In this document: piece by piece, positions 20,301 through 33,188 of the stretch | How positions within the stretch are numbered: position 1 is the first letter of the stretch | How the letters are laid out: the number at the start of each line of letters is the position of its first letter | Source of the DNA: Selenomonas timonae | GTDB taxonomy: Bacteria > Bacillota > Negativicutes > Selenomonadales > Selenomonadaceae | Assembly: GCF_014250475.1 (NCBI RefSeq) | Contig: NZ_CP060204.1 | Span: forward strand, 757,001-821,000 | Reading direction: 5' to 3' | Length of the DNA stretch: 64,000 nucleotides | Program-made: the position numbers and the translations under genes | Notes under the pieces: generated by a model | The model's input: the letters and a program-made list of their open reading frames with translations, nothing else | Database searches by the model: none | Told to the model about the DNA's origin: nothing

Positions 20301-21268
20301 AAAAGCGGATAGTCCTGCTCGTCTTCTTTGCCGTACTCGCGGCATTCTCAATGATGATCTCGGCGGCAAAGGGCTCGGTTGACATCCCGCTCGCGGAGAT
20401 CATCGGCATCCTCGGCGGTGCGCAGGACACGGCGCACGCGCAGATCCTCTGGAACATCCGTCTGCCGCGCACCATCGTTGCCGCCCTCGTTGGGATCAAT
20501 CTCTCCCTATCGGGCGCGATCCTGCAGGCGATCCTGCGCAACCCGCTCGCCGACCCGCATATCATCGGCATCTCGTCGGGCGCGGGGCTTGCGGGCATCT
20601 TCATCATGCTGATGCTGCCGGGCGCGGCGTGGCTCATCACCCCCGCAGCGTTCGGCGGGGCGATGCTCGCCGCGCTGCTCATCTACATCCTCGCGTGGCG
20701 CGATGGCATCCGCCCGACGCGCATCATCCTCGCGGGCGTTGCCGTCTCGGCATTCCTCGGCGCGGGCATCTCCGCAATGATGATCCTCTACAGTGACCGC
20801 GTGCACAGCGCGCTGATGTGGATGGTCGGCGGACTCTCCGCGCGCAGCTGGCCGCATGTCGATCTGCTGCTGCCCTATACGATTGTTGCGGGACTCCTCG
20901 CACTCATGGCGGCACAGCGGCTCAACATTCTCCAGCTCGGCGACGATATGGCACGTGGCATCGGACTTGCCGTCGAGCGCACGCGCATCATGCTCACGGC
21001 GGTTGCCGCGCTCCTCGCCGCGAGCGCTGTCTCCGTCGTGGGGCTGCTCGGCTTCGTTGGGCTCATCGTCCCACACGCAGCACGCCTCATGATCGGGGCA
21101 GACTACCGCTTCCTCCTGCCGGCGGCGGCGCTTCTCGGCATCGCCGTCGTCACGCTCAGTGACACGGCGGCACGGCTGCTCTTTGCACCGCTCGAACTGC
21201 CCGTTGGCATCATCATGGCGGTCGTCGGTGCGCCGTTCTTCCTCTATCTCCTCAGGAGGCAGCTATGA
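20297..21268 (+). CDS. FecCD/BtuC-type ABC transporter permease
   Basis: Inner-membrane permease of 323 residues with about ten hydrophobic segments. Family motifs: IRLPRTIVAALVG, LAGAILQ-like (LSGAILQAILRNPLADP), GFVGLIVPHAARLM near the coupling helix, and a C-terminal PVGIIMAVVGAPFFLYLL. Overlaps the binding-protein gene by 4 bp (ATGA) and the ATPase gene by 4 bp, so all are translationally coupled. Confidence 0.92.
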   Translation: MKKRIVLLVFFAVLAAFSMMISAAKGSVDIPLAEIIGILGGAQDTAHAQILWNIRLPRTIVAALVGINLSLSGAILQAILRNPLADPHIIGISSGAGLAGIFIMLMLPGAAWLITPAAFGGAMLAALLIYILAWRDGIRPTRIILAGVAVSAFLGAGISAMMILYSDRVHSALMWMVGGLSARSWPHVDLLLPYTIVAGLLALMAAQRLNILQLGDDMARGIGLAVERTRIMLTAVAALLAASAVSVVGLLGFVGLIVPHAARLMIGADYRFLLPAAALLGIAVVTLSDTAARLLFAPLELPVGIIMAVVGAPFFLYLLRRQL

Positions 21269-22056
21269 GTGCCGGGATGAGCACCCGCAATCTGTGCGTG
21301 AAGATTGCGGGCAAGGAAATCCTCCACGGGCTGAACGTAGAGATAGCCGCAGGGCGGCGCACAGCCATCATCGGCCCGAACGGCGCGGGCAAGACCACCC
21401 TCCTACGCGCGCTTGCGGGGCTGAACCGCCGCTACACGGGCGAGATCATGCTCGATGGGCGCGAGCTTGGCAGCTACGCGGAAAAGGAGCTCGCACGCGT
21501 GCGCGCCATCCTGCCGCAGGAGCGTGCAGCGGCGCAGGGGCTCACGGTAGAGCAGCTCGTTACGTATGGACGCTTTGCCCACGCAGGGCTCTTTCAGACG
21601 CATGCCGACGCGGAGGATCGCGAGGCAATCGCGTGGGCGATGGAGACCGCGCACGTCTCCGCCTTTGCAGAGCGCGAGGTGCACACCCTCTCGGGCGGCG
21701 AGCGGCAGCGCGTCTTTCTCGCAATGGCGCTCAGTCAGCGCCCGCGCCTCCTCCTGCTCGACGAGCCGACCACCTATCTCGACGTCGCGCATCAGCTGCG
21801 CGTCATGGAGATCATCTCCGCGCTCAACCGCGTGCACGGCATGACCATCCTCATGGTGCTGCACGACATGGCGCACGCCATGCAGTACGCCGACGACATC
21901 GTTCTCGTAGAGGCGGGGCGCGTCGTCGCAACGGGCACGCCCACCGAGGTGCTCACCGAGGAGCGCATTGCCGCCGTCTTCGGCGTCGAGGTCGAAATCT
22001 TCACGAACAGTCGCGGCATCCGTGTGCCGTCTCCCGTGGCACTTGTGGGGGAATAG
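21265..22056 (+). CDS. ABC transporter ATP-binding protein (BtuD/FecE-like)
   Basis: Cytoplasmic ATPase of 263 residues. Walker A GPNGAGKTTLL, Q-loop LPQERAA, signature LSGGERQRV, Walker B LLLLDEPT and the switch His (VLHDMAH) are all intact. Last gene of the cbiL-binding protein-permease-ATPase operon. Confidence 0.94.
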   Translation: MSAGMSTRNLCVKIAGKEILHGLNVEIAAGRRTAIIGPNGAGKTTLLRALAGLNRRYTGEIMLDGRELGSYAEKELARVRAILPQERAAAQGLTVEQLVTYGRFAHAGLFQTHADAEDREAIAWAMETAHVSAFAEREVHTLSGGERQRVFLAMALSQRPRLLLLDEPTTYLDVAHQLRVMEIISALNRVHGMTILMVLHDMAHAMQYADDIVLVEAGRVVATGTPTEVLTEERIAAVFGVEVEIFTNSRGIRVPSPVALVGE

Positions 22057-22115
22057 ATCATTGTTTGAACGGGTGTAGGATAACCTGCATCCGTTCTTTT
22101 TTGCACCAAAATAAA

Positions 22116-22144
22116 TTGACAACGCACAAAAAAATTCATACAAT
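22116..22144 (+). promoter_or_regulatory. Promoter of RelB/YoeB module 1
   Basis: TTGACA, 17-bp spacer, TACAAT, followed by TAGACAAACAGACAAAAGG, whose repeated AGACAAA could be an autoregulatory operator. Confidence 0.75.
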
Positions 22145-22174
22145 GTAGACAAACAGACAAAAGGAGGTGACATC

Positions 22175-26319: not shown

Positions 26320-27618
26320 TTGAGGGCTGCATTTATGACGCTCGGCTGCAAGGTAAATCAGTTCGAGACGGAGACGATGGAGGGGCTGTTCCGCGCGCGT
26401 GGCTATGAGGTCGTGCCGTTCGAGGAGCGAGCGGAGGTCTATGTCATCAATACGTGTTCGGTGACGCATCTGAGCGACCGCAAGTCGCGCCAGCTGATCC
26501 GCCGTGCGGCGCGCACAAATCCATCTGCGTGCATTGCGGTGACGGGCTGCTATGCGCAGGTTGCACCCGAGGAGATCCGCGCGCTCGAGGGCGTGCGCGT
26601 TGTGATCGGGACGAAGGAGCGCGCGCGCATCGTGGACTATGTGGAGGAGGCACTGCGCGCGGATACGGGCGCGATCGGAACGATCACGGACATCATGCAG
26701 GCGCGCGTCTTCGAGGATATCCCGCTGCACGCGCTGCCTCATCGCACACGTGCATTTCTGAAGATCGAGGACGGCTGTCAGAATTTCTGCACGTTCTGCA
26801 TCATTCCCTATGCGCGCGGCCCCGTGAAGTCGCGCGAGCTCTCGGCGGTCGCGCGCGAGATGAAGCTGTTGACGGAGGCGGGCTTTCATGAGGTGGTGCT
26901 GACAGGGATTCACCTCGGCGCATACGGGATTGATCTCAGAGATCGTCCGACGCTCGCGGATGCGTGCCGCACGGCGCTCGCCGAGGAGGATCTGCGGCGT
27001 CTGCGTCTCGGCTCGCTCGAGTCGGTGGAACTGTCGGCGGAGCTCCTCGAACTGATGCGGACAGAGCCGCGTTTCGCGGCGCATCTGCATCTGCCGCTGC
27101 AGGCGGGGAGTGATAACGTGCTGCGCGCGATGAACCGTCACTACGATACGGCGGCGTTTGCCACGCTGCTCGAAGATGTGCGGCGGGCGGTGCCGGGGGT
27201 GGCGATCTCGACGGACATCATCGTGGGCTTTCCGGGCGAGACAGAGGAGGATTTTGCGGCGGGGCTGGACTTCGTGCGCGCAATGGGCTTTGCGCGGATG
27301 CACGTCTTCCCGTACTCGCCGCGCAAGGGGACGCCTGCGGCGCGGCGGAGCGATCAGGTGCTACCGATGTTGCGCAAGGAGCGCGCGGCGCGGATGCAGG
27401 CGCTCGCGGATGAGTTGGCAGAGGAATATCATCGCGCAGCGCTCGGCTCGGTCGCAGATGTGCTCTTTGAGACTTCGGCGGACGGCGTGACGGACGGGCT
27501 GACGGAGACGTATATCCGCGTCTATACGGATGCGCCCGTCACGCGCGGGGAGATTGCGCCCCTGCGGCTCACGCATCTCTATCGTGACGGCGTGTGGGGG
27601 GAGCCGACTGCAAAATAA
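26320..27618 (+). CDS. mtaB: tRNA (N6-L-threonylcarbamoyladenosine(37)-C2)-methylthiotransferase MtaB
   Basis: MiaB-like radical SAM methylthiotransferase converting t6A37 to ms2t6A37. 432 residues. An N-terminal UPF0004 domain with Cys ligands (LGCKVNQFE, NTCSVT, TGCYAQ), a radical SAM motif CQNFCTFCIIPYARG, and a C-terminal TRAM domain. The NTCSVTHLSD form separates MtaB from MiaB. The TTG start is 7 nt after GGAAGGAGG. Confidence 0.93.
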   Translation: MRAAFMTLGCKVNQFETETMEGLFRARGYEVVPFEERAEVYVINTCSVTHLSDRKSRQLIRRAARTNPSACIAVTGCYAQVAPEEIRALEGVRVVIGTKERARIVDYVEEALRADTGAIGTITDIMQARVFEDIPLHALPHRTRAFLKIEDGCQNFCTFCIIPYARGPVKSRELSAVAREMKLLTEAGFHEVVLTGIHLGAYGIDLRDRPTLADACRTALAEEDLRRLRLGSLESVELSAELLELMRTEPRFAAHLHLPLQAGSDNVLRAMNRHYDTAAFATLLEDVRRAVPGVAISTDIIVGFPGETEEDFAAGLDFVRAMGFARMHVFPYSPRKGTPAARRSDQVLPMLRKERAARMQALADELAEEYHRAALGSVADVLFETSADGVTDGLTETYIRVYTDAPVTRGEIAPLRLTHLYRDGVWGEPTAK

Positions 27619-27622
27619 ATCC

Positions 27623-27651
27623 TTGACAGCGCTGTCCGTATCTGCTATTAT
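27623..27651 (+). promoter_or_regulatory. tRNA-Arg promoter
   Basis: TTGACA, 17-bp spacer, TATTAT, starting 4 bp after the mtaB stop. Confidence 0.7.
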
Positions 27652-27672
27652 AATCAAGTCGTCAAGACATGT

Positions 27673-27750
27673 GACTCAGTAGCTCAGCTGGATTAGAGTA
27701 TTTGACTACGAATCAAAGGGTCGGGGGTTCGAATCCCTCCTGGGTCACCA
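27673..27750 (+). tRNA. tRNA-Arg (ACG)
   Basis: 78-nt cloverleaf with encoded CCA. The acceptor GACTCAG pairs with CTGGGTC (one G-T), the anticodon stem is TTTGA/TCAAA with loop CTACGAA (anticodon ACG, expected to be deaminated to ICG), and the T loop is TTCGAAT. Confidence 0.96.
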
Positions 27751-27760
27751 CTATGGACAT

Positions 27761-27787
27761 AACGTCGACTGAGGTCGGCGTTTTTTT
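27761..27787 (+). terminator. Terminator after tRNA-Arg
   Basis: AACGTCGAC / GTCGGCGTT stem followed by a T7 run. Confidence 0.8.
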
Positions 27788-27924
27788 GTGCTTTTTTATT
27801 CTCAATAAAGGTACTGAGAATGAAAATATGAACGGCGTTCATTTTTCTCTTTTCAAATCCATTATTTTTCGCTATAATAGTCGTGTACGACGAAAGAAAG
27901 GGTGAAGTTCTTTTGGAGGAGAAG

Positions 27925-28560
27925 ATGGGCCGCCGAGAACGCAAGAAGCTGCAGTCGCGCCGTATGATTTTGGAGGCGGCGATCAGCGAGTTCTCGAAGA
28001 AGGGCTACAAGGACACGTCCGTTGCGGATATCATGAGCACCGCCGATCTCGGGATTGGGACGTTCTACAATTATTTCAACTCGAAGGAGGATCTGCTGTT
28101 CTCCCTGCTCGGACGCCTGAGCGAGATGATCCGCATGGCGCTCGCGGAGGCGCGTGCGGCAGAGCGTACGTCGCTGGAGCTTCTGGAGCTCGGCGCACGC
28201 GTGACGGCGAAGTTCCTCGATGAGAACCGCTTTGTGATGCCGCTCTTTCTCTCAGGTTCACACCACGGCGGACATCTGGGCGGCGAGGGCGCGCCGCATC
28301 CGCACGCAGGCAAACCGCCGAGCAGCCGCATGACGCCGCAGATCAAACAAGTCTTCGCGGAGATTATCCGCGAGGGGCAGGAGGCGGGCGAGATCCGCGA
28401 CGATGTGCCTGTCGATCTGATTGCGGAGATGTTCCACTCGCTCTATCAGGCGGCGGCGTTTAGCCACCTTGATTTGACCTATCAGGAGAATATCGCGCTC
28501 AAGACGCGCCTCCTGCTCGATGGTATCCGCAAGCGGGATGAGCAGCCCGTGTGTGGGTGA
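27925..28560 (+). CDS. TetR/AcrR family regulator with His-rich insertion
   Basis: 211-residue repressor. The N-terminal helix-turn-helix is canonical (SVADIMSTADLGIGTFYNYFNSKEDL). Residues about 111-133 form a Gly/His/Pro-rich loop, GSHHGGHLGGEGAPHPHAG, with His at 113, 114, 117, 125 and 127, inserted in the ligand-binding domain. The ATG at 27925 follows GGAGGAG. It is 36 bp upstream of two haem-synthesis radical SAM genes on the same strand, the second of which also has a His-rich stretch, so a metal- or haem-responsive regulator of that operon is inferred. Confidence 0.85.
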   Translation: MGRRERKKLQSRRMILEAAISEFSKKGYKDTSVADIMSTADLGIGTFYNYFNSKEDLLFSLLGRLSEMIRMALAEARAAERTSLELLELGARVTAKFLDENRFVMPLFLSGSHHGGHLGGEGAPHPHAGKPPSSRMTPQIKQVFAEIIREGQEAGEIRDDVPVDLIAEMFHSLYQAAAFSHLDLTYQENIALKTRLLLDGIRKRDEQPVCG

Positions 28561-28596
28561 TTTTGGACTTTTGTGTATTTGACTTAGGAGATCTCG

Positions 28597-29787
28597 ATGA
28601 TCAGTGTAACGAAGCTTCTTTTTATGGATGAATACTATGGCGATACGCTGCGCTACGGGCATAACGCGCATCGCATGAAGAGCGGTGCAGCGGAGGGGAT
28701 GGGACCCGTTGTGGTCTGGAACTCGACGCGCACGTGCAATCTGCGCTGCCGTCATTGCTATATGGAGTCGGACGGGCAGAAATATGACGGCGAGCTGACG
28801 ACGGAGGAGGCAAAGCGGTTCATCGACGGCCTTGCCGAGTTCCGCGTGCCCGTACTGCTCTTCTCGGGCGGCGAGCCGCTGATCCGCCCCGATTTCTTTG
28901 AGCTGGCGGAGTATGCGCGTAATCTCGGCGTGCGCCCGACGCTCTCGACGAACGGGACGCTCATCACTCGCGAGATGGCGCAGCGGATCAAGGATCTCGG
29001 CGTCGGCTATGTCGGCATCTCGCTCGACGGGCTCGCGGACGTGAACGATATGTTCCGTGGGGTCGAGGGCGCGTATCAGCGTGCGATGGAGGGCATCGAG
29101 AACTGCGTCGCCGTGGGGCAGCGTGTGGGGCTGCGGTTTACGATCAACCATCACAATATCATGGAGCTCGATAAGATCTTTGACTTTATCGAGGAGAAGG
29201 GCATCAACCGCGTCTGCTTCTACCACCTCGTCTACTCGGGGCGCGGCGGCCAGATGATGGATGAGGATGTGACGGCGGAGGAGTCGCGGCGTGCGATGGA
29301 TACGATCATCGCGCGGACGAAGGACTTTGAGGCGCGCGGTCTGAAAAAGGAAATTCTGACGGTGGACAACCACTGCGACGGGGTCTATATGTATCTGAAG
29401 GCACTCGCGGAGGGGAACGATGCAGGGGCGGAGCAGATCAAGAAGCTGATCGGCGCGAACGGCGGCAACCGCTCGGGCATTGCGTTCGGTGAGGTCGATC
29501 ACCTCGGCTATGTGCATCCCGATCAGTTCACGCAGCACCATACGTTCGGCAATGTGCGTGAGCGCAAGTTTGGCGATATCTGGCAGGATATGACGCATCC
29601 GATTCTCGCGGGGCTGAAGGACAGGAAGCCGCTGCTCAAGGGACGCTGCGCGAAATGTCAGTACCTCAGCTGGTGCAACGGGAATTTCCGCACGCGTGCC
29701 GAGGCGCGGACGGGGGACTTCTGGGAGTCCGATCCGTCCTGCTATCTAACGGATGAGGAGATCGGCGTTCGGGAGGCTGCTGTATGA
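28597..29787 (+). CDS. Radical SAM protein AhbC/NirJ1-like (siroheme-route haem biosynthesis)
   Basis: 396 residues. The radical SAM motif CNLRCRHC is at residues 47-54, with SGGEP following. The C-terminal auxiliary-cluster region CAKCQYLSWCNGNFRTRAE with a final Cys (PSCYLTDEEIG) matches NirJ1/AhbC. AhbC removes acetate side chains of 12,18-didecarboxysiroheme to give Fe-coproporphyrin III in the alternative haem pathway; the name is family-based. Overlaps the next gene by 4 bp. AhbA/B are not in the window. Confidence 0.85.
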   Translation: MISVTKLLFMDEYYGDTLRYGHNAHRMKSGAAEGMGPVVVWNSTRTCNLRCRHCYMESDGQKYDGELTTEEAKRFIDGLAEFRVPVLLFSGGEPLIRPDFFELAEYARNLGVRPTLSTNGTLITREMAQRIKDLGVGYVGISLDGLADVNDMFRGVEGAYQRAMEGIENCVAVGQRVGLRFTINHHNIMELDKIFDFIEEKGINRVCFYHLVYSGRGGQMMDEDVTAEESRRAMDTIIARTKDFEARGLKKEILTVDNHCDGVYMYLKALAEGNDAGAEQIKKLIGANGGNRSGIAFGEVDHLGYVHPDQFTQHHTFGNVRERKFGDIWQDMTHPILAGLKDRKPLLKGRCAKCQYLSWCNGNFRTRAEARTGDFWESDPSCYLTDEEIGVREAAV

Positions 29788-30989
29788 GTGCCCCGATGGA
29801 GGCGGCGCACGCCGCACAGGGCACGATGGGGGCGCATCCGCACGCAGCGGGACACCCTGCGGGTGCAGGACATCCCCACGCGCATATGGGCGGTCATCCC
29901 GGCGGACATCCACACGGTATGGGTCATCCCGGAGGGCACCCTGCGGGGATGCCGAAGGGGCATCCGAAGGGCGTTGCGGGCGGCGGGGTAAAGATCATCT
30001 CGTGGAACACGACGAACGCTTGCAATATGTACTGTGCCCACTGCTACCGCGACGCGGGCTGCCGCGCAGACGAGGAACTCTCGACAGAGGAGGGCAAGAA
30101 GCTCCTGCGCGAGATTGCAAAGGCGGGCTTCCGCATCATGATTTTCTCGGGAGGGGAGCCGCTGACGCGCCCCGATATCCTCGAACTTGTTTCCTATGCG
30201 CGTGGGCTTGGGCTCATCCCCGTGTTTGGCACGAACGGGACGCTCATCGACCTGCCGATGGCAAAGGCTCTCAAGGAAGCGGGCGCGTGCGGGATGGGCA
30301 TCTCGCTCGACTCGCTCGACAAGAATAAGCACGATACGTTCCGCTCGTTCCCCGGCGGTTGGGACGGCGCGGTACGCGGGATGATGAACTGCCGCGAGGC
30401 AGGGCTGCCGTTCCAGATCCATACGACGGTAATGGATTGGAACGCGCACGAGCTTGAGGCGATGACGGACTTCGCCGTGGAGATCGGAGCGAAGGCACAT
30501 CATTTCTTCTTCCTCGTGCCGACTGGACGCGCGGAGACGATCGAGGAGGAATCGCTGCGTGCAGAGGCGTATGAGGATGTCCTCTCGCGCATCATGCGGA
30601 AGCAGGAGACGGTGGACATCGAGCTGAAGCCGACATGTGCGCCGCAGTTCCTGCGCATCGCCGATCAGCTCGGTGTGGACACGCGCTTCTCACGCGGATG
30701 TCTGGCGGGGCTGACGTACTGCATCATCAGTCCGCGTGGCAAGGTACAGCCGTGTGCGTACCTCAACCGCGAGCTGGGGGATGTGCGCGAGACGCCGTTT
30801 GATGAGATCTGGGCGAAAAACGAGGTGTTCAAGGAGCTACGTACGCTCGACTACGGCGGCGGCTGCGGCTCATGCAACTACAAGAAGGCGTGCGGCGGCT
30901 GTCGTGCGCGTGCGGCGTACTACCATGGCGGTGACTTCATGGCGGAGGAACCGTGGTGCCTCTACCACGGGCGGCGCGGAGAAGCGTAA
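29784..30989 (+). CDS. Radical SAM protein AhbD/NirJ2-like with N-terminal His-rich extension
   Basis: 401 residues. The catalytic part starts about residue 69 with VKIISWNTTNACNMYCAHC (Cys 80, 84, 87) and SGGEP, and ends in a SPASM-like cysteine-rich region (CGSCNYKKACGGCRAR). AhbD decarboxylates Fe-coproporphyrin III propionates to form haem. Unusually, residues 9-60 carry 13 histidines in HPHA/GHPGGHP repeats, a likely metal-binding tail. ATG 29784 is coupled to the upstream gene (ATGA). Enzyme assignment is from family pattern; the role of the tail is unknown. Confidence 0.85.
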   Translation: MSAPMEAAHAAQGTMGAHPHAAGHPAGAGHPHAHMGGHPGGHPHGMGHPGGHPAGMPKGHPKGVAGGGVKIISWNTTNACNMYCAHCYRDAGCRADEELSTEEGKKLLREIAKAGFRIMIFSGGEPLTRPDILELVSYARGLGLIPVFGTNGTLIDLPMAKALKEAGACGMGISLDSLDKNKHDTFRSFPGGWDGAVRGMMNCREAGLPFQIHTTVMDWNAHELEAMTDFAVEIGAKAHHFFFLVPTGRAETIEEESLRAEAYEDVLSRIMRKQETVDIELKPTCAPQFLRIADQLGVDTRFSRGCLAGLTYCIISPRGKVQPCAYLNRELGDVRETPFDEIWAKNEVFKELRTLDYGGGCGSCNYKKACGGCRARAAYYHGGDFMAEEPWCLYHGRRGEA

Positions 30990-31000
30990 TGGAATAGACG

Positions 31001-31033
31001 AAAGCCCCCTGACGACTGGTCAGGGGGCCTTTG
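31001..31033 (+). terminator. Terminator after the haem-synthesis operon
   Basis: AAAGCCCCCTGAC / GTCAGGGGGCCTTT stem and T-rich tail. Confidence 0.8.
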
Positions 31034-31035
31034 TG

Positions 31036-31063
31036 TTGCTATTGAGATAAATATGTGTATAAT
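31036..31063 (+). promoter_or_regulatory. Promoter of locus B toxin mRNA
   Basis: TTGCTA, 16-bp spacer, TATAAT; predicted +1 near 31070, within GAGAACC. Confidence 0.6.
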
Positions 31064-31105
31064 AGAGAAAGAGAACCAAAGACAAGCAATGGCGGCGACC
31101 TTCTT

Positions 31106-31134
31106 CACCTTCCCAATCATGTAAGTGGGAGGTG
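31106..31134 (+). promoter_or_regulatory. SD-sequestering hairpin, locus B
   Basis: CACCTTCCCA pairs with TGGGAGGTG, burying the GGGAGG SD of the small peptide in a stem with a 10-nt loop and one bulge. Confidence 0.65.
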
Positions 31135-31140
31135 GTGCAT

Positions 31141-31212
31141 ATGGACAGCTACGAGTGCATACTGATTCTGGTATTCGCTACGGGTTACATCCTCGCAGTA
31201 TCAAAGAAATAA
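31141..31212 (+). CDS. Small hydrophobic peptide, putative type I toxin (locus B)
   Basis: 23-residue peptide that starts MDSYECILILVFATG and ends YILAVSKK: one transmembrane stretch with a basic C-terminus, the plan of holin-like type I toxins. SD GGGAGG with 8-nt spacing, held in a hairpin. The 5' leader (GAGAACC..GGCGGC) can pair with the 3' untranslated end (GCCGC..GGTTCTC), a fold-back known from several type I toxin mRNAs. A convergent small RNA from 31291 overlaps the 3' end and carries an anti-SD segment. Similarity is by pattern; toxicity is untested. Confidence 0.6.
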   Translation: MDSYECILILVFATGYILAVSKK

Positions 31213-31291
31213 CCGCCCTGCCTTCGAAACCGGAGCGGTTAAATCGTTTCCCGTGAAGAGGTAGCCGCTTTGTCGCGGTTCTCTTTTTTGT
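31205..31291 (-). ncRNA. Putative type I antitoxin small RNA, locus B
   Basis: From a near-consensus minus-strand promoter (31298-31326), a transcript of about 85-90 nt would run towards the peptide gene and end at the AACCGC/GCGGTT hairpin near its stop. It contains CTACCTCTTCAC, which pairs with the peptide SD GTGGGAGGTGG (one bulge). Its 5' part and the toxin mRNA 5' part share GAGAACC and GGCGGC/GCGGC. Inferred. Confidence 0.55.
31257..31290 (+). terminator. Terminator of locus B toxin mRNA
   Basis: AGAG..GCCGC / GCGGT..CTCT stem followed by TTTTTTG. Confidence 0.7.
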
Positions 31292-31297
31292 ATGTTC

Positions 31298-31326
31298 ATT
31301 ATAGCAGACATTTGTCTGCTTTGCAA
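31298..31326 (-). promoter_or_regulatory. Promoter of locus B antitoxin RNA, spacer is a 16-bp palindrome
   Basis: On the minus strand: TTGCAA, 17-bp spacer, TATAAT. The spacer contains the perfect palindrome GCAGACATTTGTCTGC, also found at 44817. The -35 box ends 2 bp from the P-type ATPase stop codon. Confidence 0.75.
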
Positions 31327-31328
31327 AT

Positions 31329-33188
31329 TTAATCTTCTTTGACGCTCAGCGCACGCATGGCGTTGAAGATGGCGAGGACGGTGACGCCGACATCGGCGAA
31401 GATTGCCGCCCAGAGTCCTGCCCAGCCGATGGCGCCAAGGACGAGGACGACTGCCTTGATGCCGATGGCGAAGACGATGTTCTGCCACGCGATGCTCATG
31501 GTCTTGCGCGCGATATCGATTGCGGTTGCGATCTTTCGCGGCTCGTCGGTCATGAGCACGACATCTGCTGCCTCGATTGCCGCATCCGAGCCGAGTGCAC
31601 CCATCGCAATGCCGACATCGGCACGCGCAAGCACGGGCGCATCGTTGATGCCGTCGCCAACGTAGGCGAGGGTCTTGCCCTCGCCCTGTGCGGCAAGGAG
31701 TGTCTCGACCTGCGCGACCTTGTCCTGCGGGAGGAGCTCGGCGTGGACGGTGTCGATGCCGAGGCGCTTGCCGACACTCGCGCCGATTGGACGTGTGTCG
31801 CCCGTGAGCATAACGGTCTCACGGATGCCGCGCTCCTTCAGTGCGCGGATCGCCTCTGCCGCGTCCTCCTTGATCTCGTCTGCGACGTGGACGACGCCTG
31901 CGAAGCGCCCGTCAACAGAGAGGTAGACCGCGCCCGTGTGTGGGATGGGCGGGATGTTTACCGTGTTCTTTGCTGTGAGGAGGTCATGCGTGCCGAGCAG
32001 GATGAAATGTCCGTTGATGTGCGCGGAGATGCCGCGGCCCGCGTTTTCCTCGAGCGCGTGTACATCCGTCTCCTCGGTCGTGTTCCCGCCGCCCGTGAAG
32101 GCGCGGAGGATCGAGCGTCCGATCGGATGGGTGGAGTAGCGCTCGGCGTTCGCCGCGTAAAAGAGCACGTCTTCCTCTGCGAATCCCTCGGCGGGGATGA
32201 CGCTCGCGACGTGGAAGCTGCCCTTTGTGAGCGTGCCCGTCTTGTCGAATACGACGGTGTCCGCCTTTGCCAGAGCCTCAAGGTAGTTGCCGCCCTTGAT
32301 GAGGATGCCCGCGCGGCTCGCGCCGCCGATCCCCGCGAAGAAGGAGAGCGGAACGGAGATGACGAGGGCGCAGGGACAGGAGATGACGAGGAAGGTGAGT
32401 GCGCGGTAGATCCACATGGAGAAGGGATCACCCGTGACAAGTGGCGGGATGATGGCGAGCAGCACGGCGCCGATGACGACGGCGGGCGTGTACCAGCGGG
32501 CAAAGCGTGTGATGAGTGTTTCGGTGGTCGCCTTCTTATCCGTCGCCTCCTCCACGAGCGAGAGGATGCGCTCGACGGTCGATTCCTCGTATGGGGTTGT
32601 GACGCGCACTTCAAGCACGCCCGACTGGTTGATGCAGCCGCTGATGATCTCATCGTTTACACGCACCGCACGCGGCATGGATTCGCCTGTCAGAGCGGAG
32701 GTGTCGAGGTGACCCTCGCCCTTCGTGATGATGCCGTCGAGCGGGACGCGCTCGCCCGGACGGACGATGATCGTCTCGCCGACCTCGACCTCGTCGGGGA
32801 ATACCTCCTCCTCTGCGCCGTCTCTGAGAACGCATGCCGTGTCGGGGCGGATATCCATGAGGGAGGAGATGGAGCGGCGGGAACGCTGCACGGCGTAGCC
32901 TTGGAACCACTCGCCGATCTGGTAGAGCAGCATGACGGCGACGCCCTCGGAGTAGTCGTTGAGTGCAATCGCGCCGATGGTGGCGACCGCCATGAGGAAG
33001 TTCTCGTCAAAGACGCGCCCGTGGCGGATATTGACTGCCGCACGCCAGAGGATGTCCCAGCCGATGAGCGCGTATGCTGCGAGGAGGAGCACGACACCGA
33101 CGGTCGTGTCTTCGAGGATCATTCCCGGGATGAAGAGTGCTGCTGCTCCGCCGATGCGCATGAGCATCCGCTTCTGTTTCTTCGTCAT
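31329..33188 (-). CDS. Cd/Zn/Co-type P1B ATPase lacking an N-terminal metal-binding domain
   Basis: Heavy-metal efflux ATPase, 619 residues, with the usual eight membrane segments. CPC ion-binding motif at residues 271-273, phosphorylation motif DKTGT at 315-319, SALTGES (actuator) and VGDGINDAPVLA (hinge). CadA/ZntA-type enzymes normally begin with an HMA domain; here that domain is a separate protein encoded 24 bp upstream (33213-33431). Which of Cd, Zn, Pb or Co is exported cannot be decided. Transcribed from the operator-controlled promoter at 33456-33511. Confidence 0.92.
   Translation of the reverse strand: MTKKQKRMLMRIGGAAALFIPGMILEDTTVGVVLLLAAYALIGWDILWRAAVNIRHGRVFDENFLMAVATIGAIALNDYSEGVAVMLLYQIGEWFQGYAVQRSRRSISSLMDIRPDTACVLRDGAEEEVFPDEVEVGETIIVRPGERVPLDGIITKGEGHLDTSALTGESMPRAVRVNDEIISGCINQSGVLEVRVTTPYEESTVERILSLVEEATDKKATTETLITRFARWYTPAVVIGAVLLAIIPPLVTGDPFSMWIYRALTFLVISCPCALVISVPLSFFAGIGGASRAGILIKGGNYLEALAKADTVVFDKTGTLTKGSFHVASVIPAEGFAEEDVLFYAANAERYSTHPIGRSILRAFTGGGNTTEETDVHALEENAGRGISAHINGHFILLGTHDLLTAKNTVNIPPIPHTGAVYLSVDGRFAGVVHVADEIKEDAAEAIRALKERGIRETVMLTGDTRPIGASVGKRLGIDTVHAELLPQDKVAQVETLLAAQGEGKTLAYVGDGINDAPVLARADVGIAMGALGSDAAIEAADVVLMTDEPRKIATAIDIARKTMSIAWQNIVFAIGIKAVVLVLGAIGWAGLWAAIFADVGVTVLAIFNAMRALSVKED

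Follow-up and report, generated by a model that had tools for sequence, protein, structure and literature searches.

Histidine-rich segments occur naturally in HypB and Hpn, which are nickel chaperones or stores, and on tetrapyrrole enzymes natural precedents exist in CbiX-L and PitA. CbiX-L, a cobaltochelatase with an Fe-S centre, takes cobalt as its substrate and carries a long histidine-rich region at its C-terminus (PMC7689651). PitA of Haloferax, a ChdC-ABM protein to which the step from coprohaem to haem b is assigned, has a flexible histidine-rich linker between its two domains; the linker bound Co2+, and haem was placed in the ABM domain (PMC5746218). The AhbD/NirJ2 enzymes, of which AhbD of Methanosarcina barkeri is an example, act on Fe-coproporphyrin III, a substrate that already holds iron, and a subset of AhbDs has the full SPASM motif CX20-33CX17CX36-37CX2CX5CX2CX17-35C (PMC10452713). 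An archaeal study equates Ahb-NirJ1 with AhbD and Ahb-NirJ2 with AhbC, which is the opposite of the pairing given by the profile names used here (PMC3942049). Among regulators, HrtR, HatR and FhtR have the TetR fold and a part in haem-related regulation, repressing haem efflux genes; in HrtR, haem is held by two fixed histidines rather than by a disordered loop (PMC11442138).

The locus considered here lies in a stretch of 64,000 nucleotides from Selenomonas timonae (the window). Its NirJ2 protein resembles the M. barkeri type of enzyme in the CX3CX2C motif, the SPASM spacing, the NirJ1/AhbC-like partner and the presence of AhbA/B-type genes in the genome, but differs in having an extra histidine-rich N-terminal tail of 69 residues (compared with PMC10452713). 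With CbiX-L it shares a place among tetrapyrrole enzymes, an Fe-S centre and a long histidine-rich region, although NirJ2 is no chelatase and has no free metal substrate; with PitA it shares the assigned step and a flexible histidine-rich segment, although the two enzymes are unrelated. In contrast to the segments of HypB and Hpn, the tail is rich in glycine and proline and almost without acidic residues. The operon also encodes a TetR-fold protein, as in the haem-related systems above, but one with a histidine-rich loop that is predicted to be disordered. The first-pass annotation knew of no such tail in AhbD, and in a search of listings and passages of the open-access literature we likewise found no His-tailed AhbD.

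The enzyme and its pathway

The nirJ2 gene (29784..30989, + strand) starts with the ATG at 29784 and encodes an AhbD-like radical SAM/SPASM haem-pathway enzyme of 401 residues. Against TIGR04055 (NirJ2) the product scored 596 bits (cut-off 500), the whole profile being covered by residues 71-396, and against TIGR04545 (AhbD) it scored 351 bits, below the cut-off of 500. Because the latter cut-off was missed, we class the protein as a member of the NirJ2 family that probably acts as AhbD, and its first description as AhbD/NirJ2-like stands in that form. The catalytic radical SAM and SPASM core, residues 70-401 (29991..30986, + strand), is delimited by profile matches, Pfam and an AlphaFold2 model (mean pLDDT 73.5, pTM 0.74), in which the first core strand comprises residues 70-75, in keeping with the earlier placement of the catalytic domain from about residue 69. 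The radical SAM CX3CX2C motif is formed by C80/84/87, and the SPASM cysteines (285, 306, 324, 361, 364, 370, 373 and 392) are spaced by X20, X17, X36, X2, X5, X2 and X18; measured against the motif given in PMC10452713, the AhbD cysteine motif (CX3CX2C plus full SPASM) is complete. Pfam recognized radical SAM, SPASM and Fer4_12 domains, with Amidohydro_2 below cut-off, and found no ChdC and ABM domains of the PitA type in this protein. The solved folds nearest to the model were PqqE, BlsE and SuiB.

The first gene of the operon encodes a TetR-family regulator (27925..28560, + strand; PF00440) and is followed by nirJ1 (28597..29787, + strand), which encodes an AhbC-like radical SAM enzyme (TIGR04054, 683.6, cut-off 650). 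A TetR match was found in 87 of the 121 sequences searched, i.e. the window and loci L051-L170, which come from overlapping collections, and in 83 of these 87 it was located 0-200 nt 5' of nirJ1. Downstream, a gene for a heavy-metal P-type ATPase (31329-33188, - strand) is convergent with nirJ2 and outside the operon. As for a possible RNA element in the region 27400-31400, Rfam at gathering scores yielded only a tRNA (27673-27747).

The genome contains two AhbA/AhbB-type genes (PF17805 over cut-off) and a gene of the cytochrome c nitrite reductase family (over cut-off), the product of which needs haem, and it has no match to PF00762 (ferrochelatase HemH) or PF02239 (cytochrome cd1). Since AhbA/AhbB are present, and both ferrochelatase and cytochrome cd1 are missing, the likely product of the sirohaem-dependent pathway in this organism is haem b, and the nirJ2 product is likely to be the haem b synthase of the last, AhbD-type step. 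Two other assignments were rejected, the classical haem pathway by the absence of HemH and a role in haem d1 formation (NirJ) by the absence of cytochrome cd1. NirJ2 is further tied to the pathway by a fusion in another Bacillota genome (L246, from G357), where a sirohaem decarboxylase (AhbA/NirD-L-like) domain is joined to the C-terminus of NirJ2; Pfam, applied to L246 alone, places PF22451 and PF17805 after the radical SAM/SPASM part. Long frames resembling this fusion were also seen in G394, G425, G496 and G515.

A histidine-rich tail that looks translated

Residues 1-69 (29784..29990, + strand) constitute an N-terminal extension that is missing from tail-less relatives. Within it, a His/Pro/Gly-rich stretch of residues 9-60 (29808..29963, + strand) contains 13 histidines, at residues 9, 18, 20, 24, 30, 32, 34, 38, 42, 44, 48, 52 and 60, and no cysteine, as the first-pass annotation had stated; the coordinates, frame and length that it gave were also correct. 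The extension as a whole has no further histidine, eight HP dipeptides, all of them within residues 18-61, no cysteine, one Glu and no Asp. With a histidine background of 3.2%, taken from 57 mechanically picked ORFs in the window that are not all genes, the binomial probability of at least 13 histidines in 52 residues is 8e-9; where sequence is repetitive such a probability exaggerates the case, and conservation is the better evidence. The next most histidine-rich 52-residue stretches among the window ORFs have 11 and 8 histidines, the former being found in an Arg-rich, mechanically listed ORF (21159-22148, + strand) that may be no gene. The exact DNA pattern for HPGGHP gave 21 matches in the 14 genomes of the genus, 20 of them inside nirJ2; the single match elsewhere is G005:C4:399794-399810.

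In the AlphaFold2 model, residues 1-67 have pLDDT <50 whereas the core is ordered, residues 246-255 and 393-401 being of poor confidence too, and the tail is thus predicted to be a flexible or disordered arm. The first strand of a radical SAM barrel is followed by the cluster loop, so that the tail should leave the barrel at the end opposite that loop.

The tail would be an artefact if translation began behind or within it. Tail-less relatives begin with M/V-(K/N)I[IV]SWN or M/L/V-I[IV]SWN, and thus at the position equivalent to V69-KIISWN of the window; 10 of the 14 genomes of the genus have a GTG codon immediately ahead of KIISWN, with G-rich sequence in front of it; and the window tail has in-frame ATG codons at residues 15, 35, 46 and 56. 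However, the window and three other genomes have GTA at that position, and beyond the start codon no ATG occurs within the tail of either G001 or G010, though GTG precedes KIISWN in both. The upstream start, on the other hand, is preceded at 7 nt by GGGAGG (29771..29776, + strand), a likely ribosome-binding site that has G-rich sequence at the equivalent place in other members of the genus, and it shares the 4 nt ATGA (29784..29787, + strand) with the end of nirJ1, an overlapping arrangement common to 8/8 named genus loci. When the 14 tails were aligned on DNA alone, each of the 14,746 aligned positions was in a common frame, even with 60 of 289 pairwise gap runs that were not multiples of three, and differences at codon positions 1, 2 and 3 numbered 761, 830 and 1957, an excess at third positions that extends along the whole tail. 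Given the GTA at codon 69, the upstream ribosome-binding site, the 4-nt overlap and the third-position pattern, a start near residue 64-69, which the first-pass annotation had set against a real tail, is judged unlikely, and we consider it highly improbable that translation begins anywhere behind or within the tail.

The tail has instead the look of translated and selected sequence. Its median dN/dS was 0.18 over 91 pairs in a protein-guided alignment, which the repeats make uncertain, and pairwise identity by residue within the genus was 0.75 for His, 0.78 for Gly and 0.80 for Pro, as compared with 0.52 for Ala. The 4-nt overlap between nirJ1 and nirJ2 was found in 11 of 12 tailed rows versus 16 of 53 tail-less ones (65 of the 80 named loci being scorable, with starts assigned by rule); the remaining tail-less rows have short nirJ1-nirJ2 gaps or a distant nirJ1. 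From this distribution we infer that the start of nirJ2 is the older feature and that the tail was probably inserted directly behind it.

Occurrence and evolution of the tail

The NirJ2 enzyme is present in 176 of the 189 genomes of the family. All 14 genomes of the genus, which comprises Selenomonas species and Centipeda periodontii and which we take to be one of mouth bacteria, have the tail, with 50-69 residues before KIISWN and 8-13 histidines. Elsewhere in the family, among the matches listed, histidine tails occur only in two genera, g22 (6/6 genomes, G164-G169) and g28 (1/1, G184), where they are of different sequence and similar composition; four further N-termini from the family (G050, G077, G103 and G112) had none, and the enzyme of S. 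ruminantium HD4 (L099) is likewise tail-less. Among 120 loci, drawn from two overlapping collections and therefore not all distinct organisms, 28 have a tail, every one of them belonging to g1, g22 or g28, and 92 have none, which argues that it is not needed for catalysis. In a wider sample of Bacillota, NirJ2 was over the cut-off in 139 of 398 genomes, and no His-rich tail was seen in the 40 N-termini inspected, which include all those with frames of at least 355 codons among the matches listed, except the genus members G000 and G010; shorter frames, in which a long tail could not be accommodated, are mostly outside the 40. As to the breadth of the tail among homologues, for which the first-pass annotation had proposed an alignment, the N-termini inspected place it in the genus and two further genera.

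In a NirJ1+NirJ2 tree built from 42 of 44 sequences (L086 and L089 were excluded as incomplete), the genus (support 100) stood apart from the other tailed lineages, the tailed g22 and g28 loci did not form a single clade, and several deep supports were between 22 and 86. Since deep supports are low and g22 and g28 are not one clade, the tail may have been gained two or more times, or gained and then lost.

One could suppose that the tail is a weakly constrained low-complexity spacer, the N-terminus having been extended by repeat slippage in G+C-rich DNA and the extension tolerated since it is disordered. The variable length (50-69 residues) and the repeated units would fit, and with the TetR loop lengthened as well in these genomes, such growth may be a general tendency of theirs. 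Nevertheless, dN/dS is low and the histidines are kept, the tail has been retained throughout the genus, and two further genera have tails of similar composition. Specific versions of this explanation were tried and rejected: a tandem-repeat origin, as only 1.9 copies of a 12-nt repeat are detectable in the DNA, and G+C content as the sole cause, as the tail-less locus L076 (g23) is equally G+C-rich (0.625, versus 0.527-0.617 in tailed loci). We regard a spacer as rather unlikely, somewhat more so than the metal buffer considered below.

The operon regulator and its upstream region

A histidine-rich loop in the TetR regulator (HHGGHLGGEGAPHPHAG; 28261..28311, + strand) is mostly predicted disordered, residues 114-128 having pLDDT <50, and such a loop in the tailed lineages is newly noticed here. 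The median number of loop histidines was 4 in the genus (n=13), 3 in other tailed lineages (n=4), 2 in g23 (n=7) and 1 in the others (n=32), and the difference between the 17 tailed loops and the 39 others, among 56 distinct loops, gave a Mann-Whitney P of 1e-7 with relatedness ignored. The g23 loops (L076, L088, L143, L149, L152, L154 and L159, four of the seven placed in this group by resemblance) are long and have 1-4 histidines, with HP in 5 of 7, and the accompanying NirJ2 is tail-less. A strict link between tail and TetR loop is thus disfavoured, because g23 has histidines in TetR without a NirJ2 tail. Apart from the loop, His170 (the first Met uncounted) is invariant in 38 aligned TetR sequences. 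The closest structural neighbours of the regulator are for the most part acyl-CoA regulators, FadR among them, and unassigned proteins, and none of the 50 titles among the TetR fold matches listed names a haem sensor.

Two palindromes are found upstream of the regulator gene. The first, ATGAA-N5-TTCAT (27828..27842, + strand), is a possible TetR operator and ends 7 nt before a TTTTCA-17-TATAAT promoter-like sequence (27850-27878). The pattern is present in the upstream regions of 14/14 genus and 7/7 tail-less loci, being placed elsewhere in L114; with one mismatch allowed it occurs twice in the window against 1.66 times expected, and is thus not commoner than chance. The second (ATTCTCAAT...TGAGAAT; 27793..27826, + strand), which precedes the tetR promoter, was found in 11 of 14 genus regions (absent from L059, L061 and L062) and in none of the 7 tail-less ones, and its half-sites resemble Fur boxes. 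A regulon for this palindrome was sought and rejected: the only genome copy at up to one mismatch is that of the tetR promoter, with one other place at two mismatches.

Discussion

What the tail might bind can be approached from its precedents and its neighbourhood. It could be a metal-ion buffer, binding Ni, Zn, Co, Cu or Fe and either storing metal or protecting the predicted iron-sulfur clusters against wrong ones. Low-complexity regions rich in histidine are over-represented among proteins that bind Ni/Co or take part in cobalamin synthesis (PMC6821194), the tail of CbiX-L, which chelation does not require, has been proposed to serve storage and delivery (PMC7689651), and PitA was purified on Co2+ by means of its linker (PMC5746218). 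The PitA precedent supports metal at least as much as haem, because its linker bound Co2+ and haem was assigned elsewhere in the protein. In addition, a heavy-metal P-type ATPase gene is located, in convergent orientation, within 4 kb downstream of nirJ2 at seven of the 8 named genus loci, the exception being L091, where the sequence stops after 169 nt; no such gene was seen at any of the remaining 72 named loci, including 8 with <2.5 kb of downstream sequence. However, the gene is convergent and no part of the operon, and at L095 and L096, two of the seven, it is a relative, 61% identical, situated 1.2-1.4 kb away. The NirJ2 step, moreover, inserts no metal, and the 82 His regions of cobalamin-pathway proteins average 53% His, 23% Asp and 9% Glu (PMC6821194), as against one Glu and no Asp in this tail. 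A metal buffer seems to us rather doubtful. Delivery of iron for catalysis is the least likely role, because the substrate already contains iron.

The explanation that we prefer, though we would put it somewhat short of an even chance, is that the tail is a ligand-binding tether, primarily for the haem made by the enzyme and secondarily for divalent metal ions, and that the TetR loop may serve the same ligand. In favour of haem, the regulator has changed alongside the enzyme, iron is not inserted at the NirJ2 step, haem is the product to be expected, and PitA, unrelated to NirJ2 but assigned to the same step, also has a histidine-rich segment. In its Gly/His/Pro make-up the tail resembles a region of histidine-rich glycoprotein that is rich in histidine and binds both metals and haem. 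A His/Gly/Pro arm of 50-69 residues, leading from the start codon up to the catalytic domain, would reversibly hold enzyme-made haem by its histidines, so that less of it is free, and would then pass it on; secondarily, the same histidines may bind divalent metal ions, and the His-rich TetR loop in the same lineages would suit sensing of the same ligand. The computations show a conserved tail that bears the marks of translation and selection, its predicted disorder, its distribution over lineages, the pathway around it and the TetR loop; ligand binding by the tail, haem as that ligand and sensing of it by TetR are steps that we infer. In a more far-reaching version, which we think unlikely, an AhbD-type tail would capture new haem and the loop of TetR would sense it, so that product sensing and hand-off are direct, and these flexible segments would have arisen more than once in the family and convergently in PitA.

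We know of no account of how haem is handled in anaerobes after the AhbD step. Tailed and tail-less enzymes, the cores of which are up to about 87% identical among the matches listed, offer a clean natural comparison, and the parallel change in the operon regulator points to a single shared ligand. If this ligand were merely a metal ion, the tail would be another histidine-rich metal tail in a new location; if the haem-handling reading is true, it would mean direct product sensing and hand-off of haem in anaerobes.
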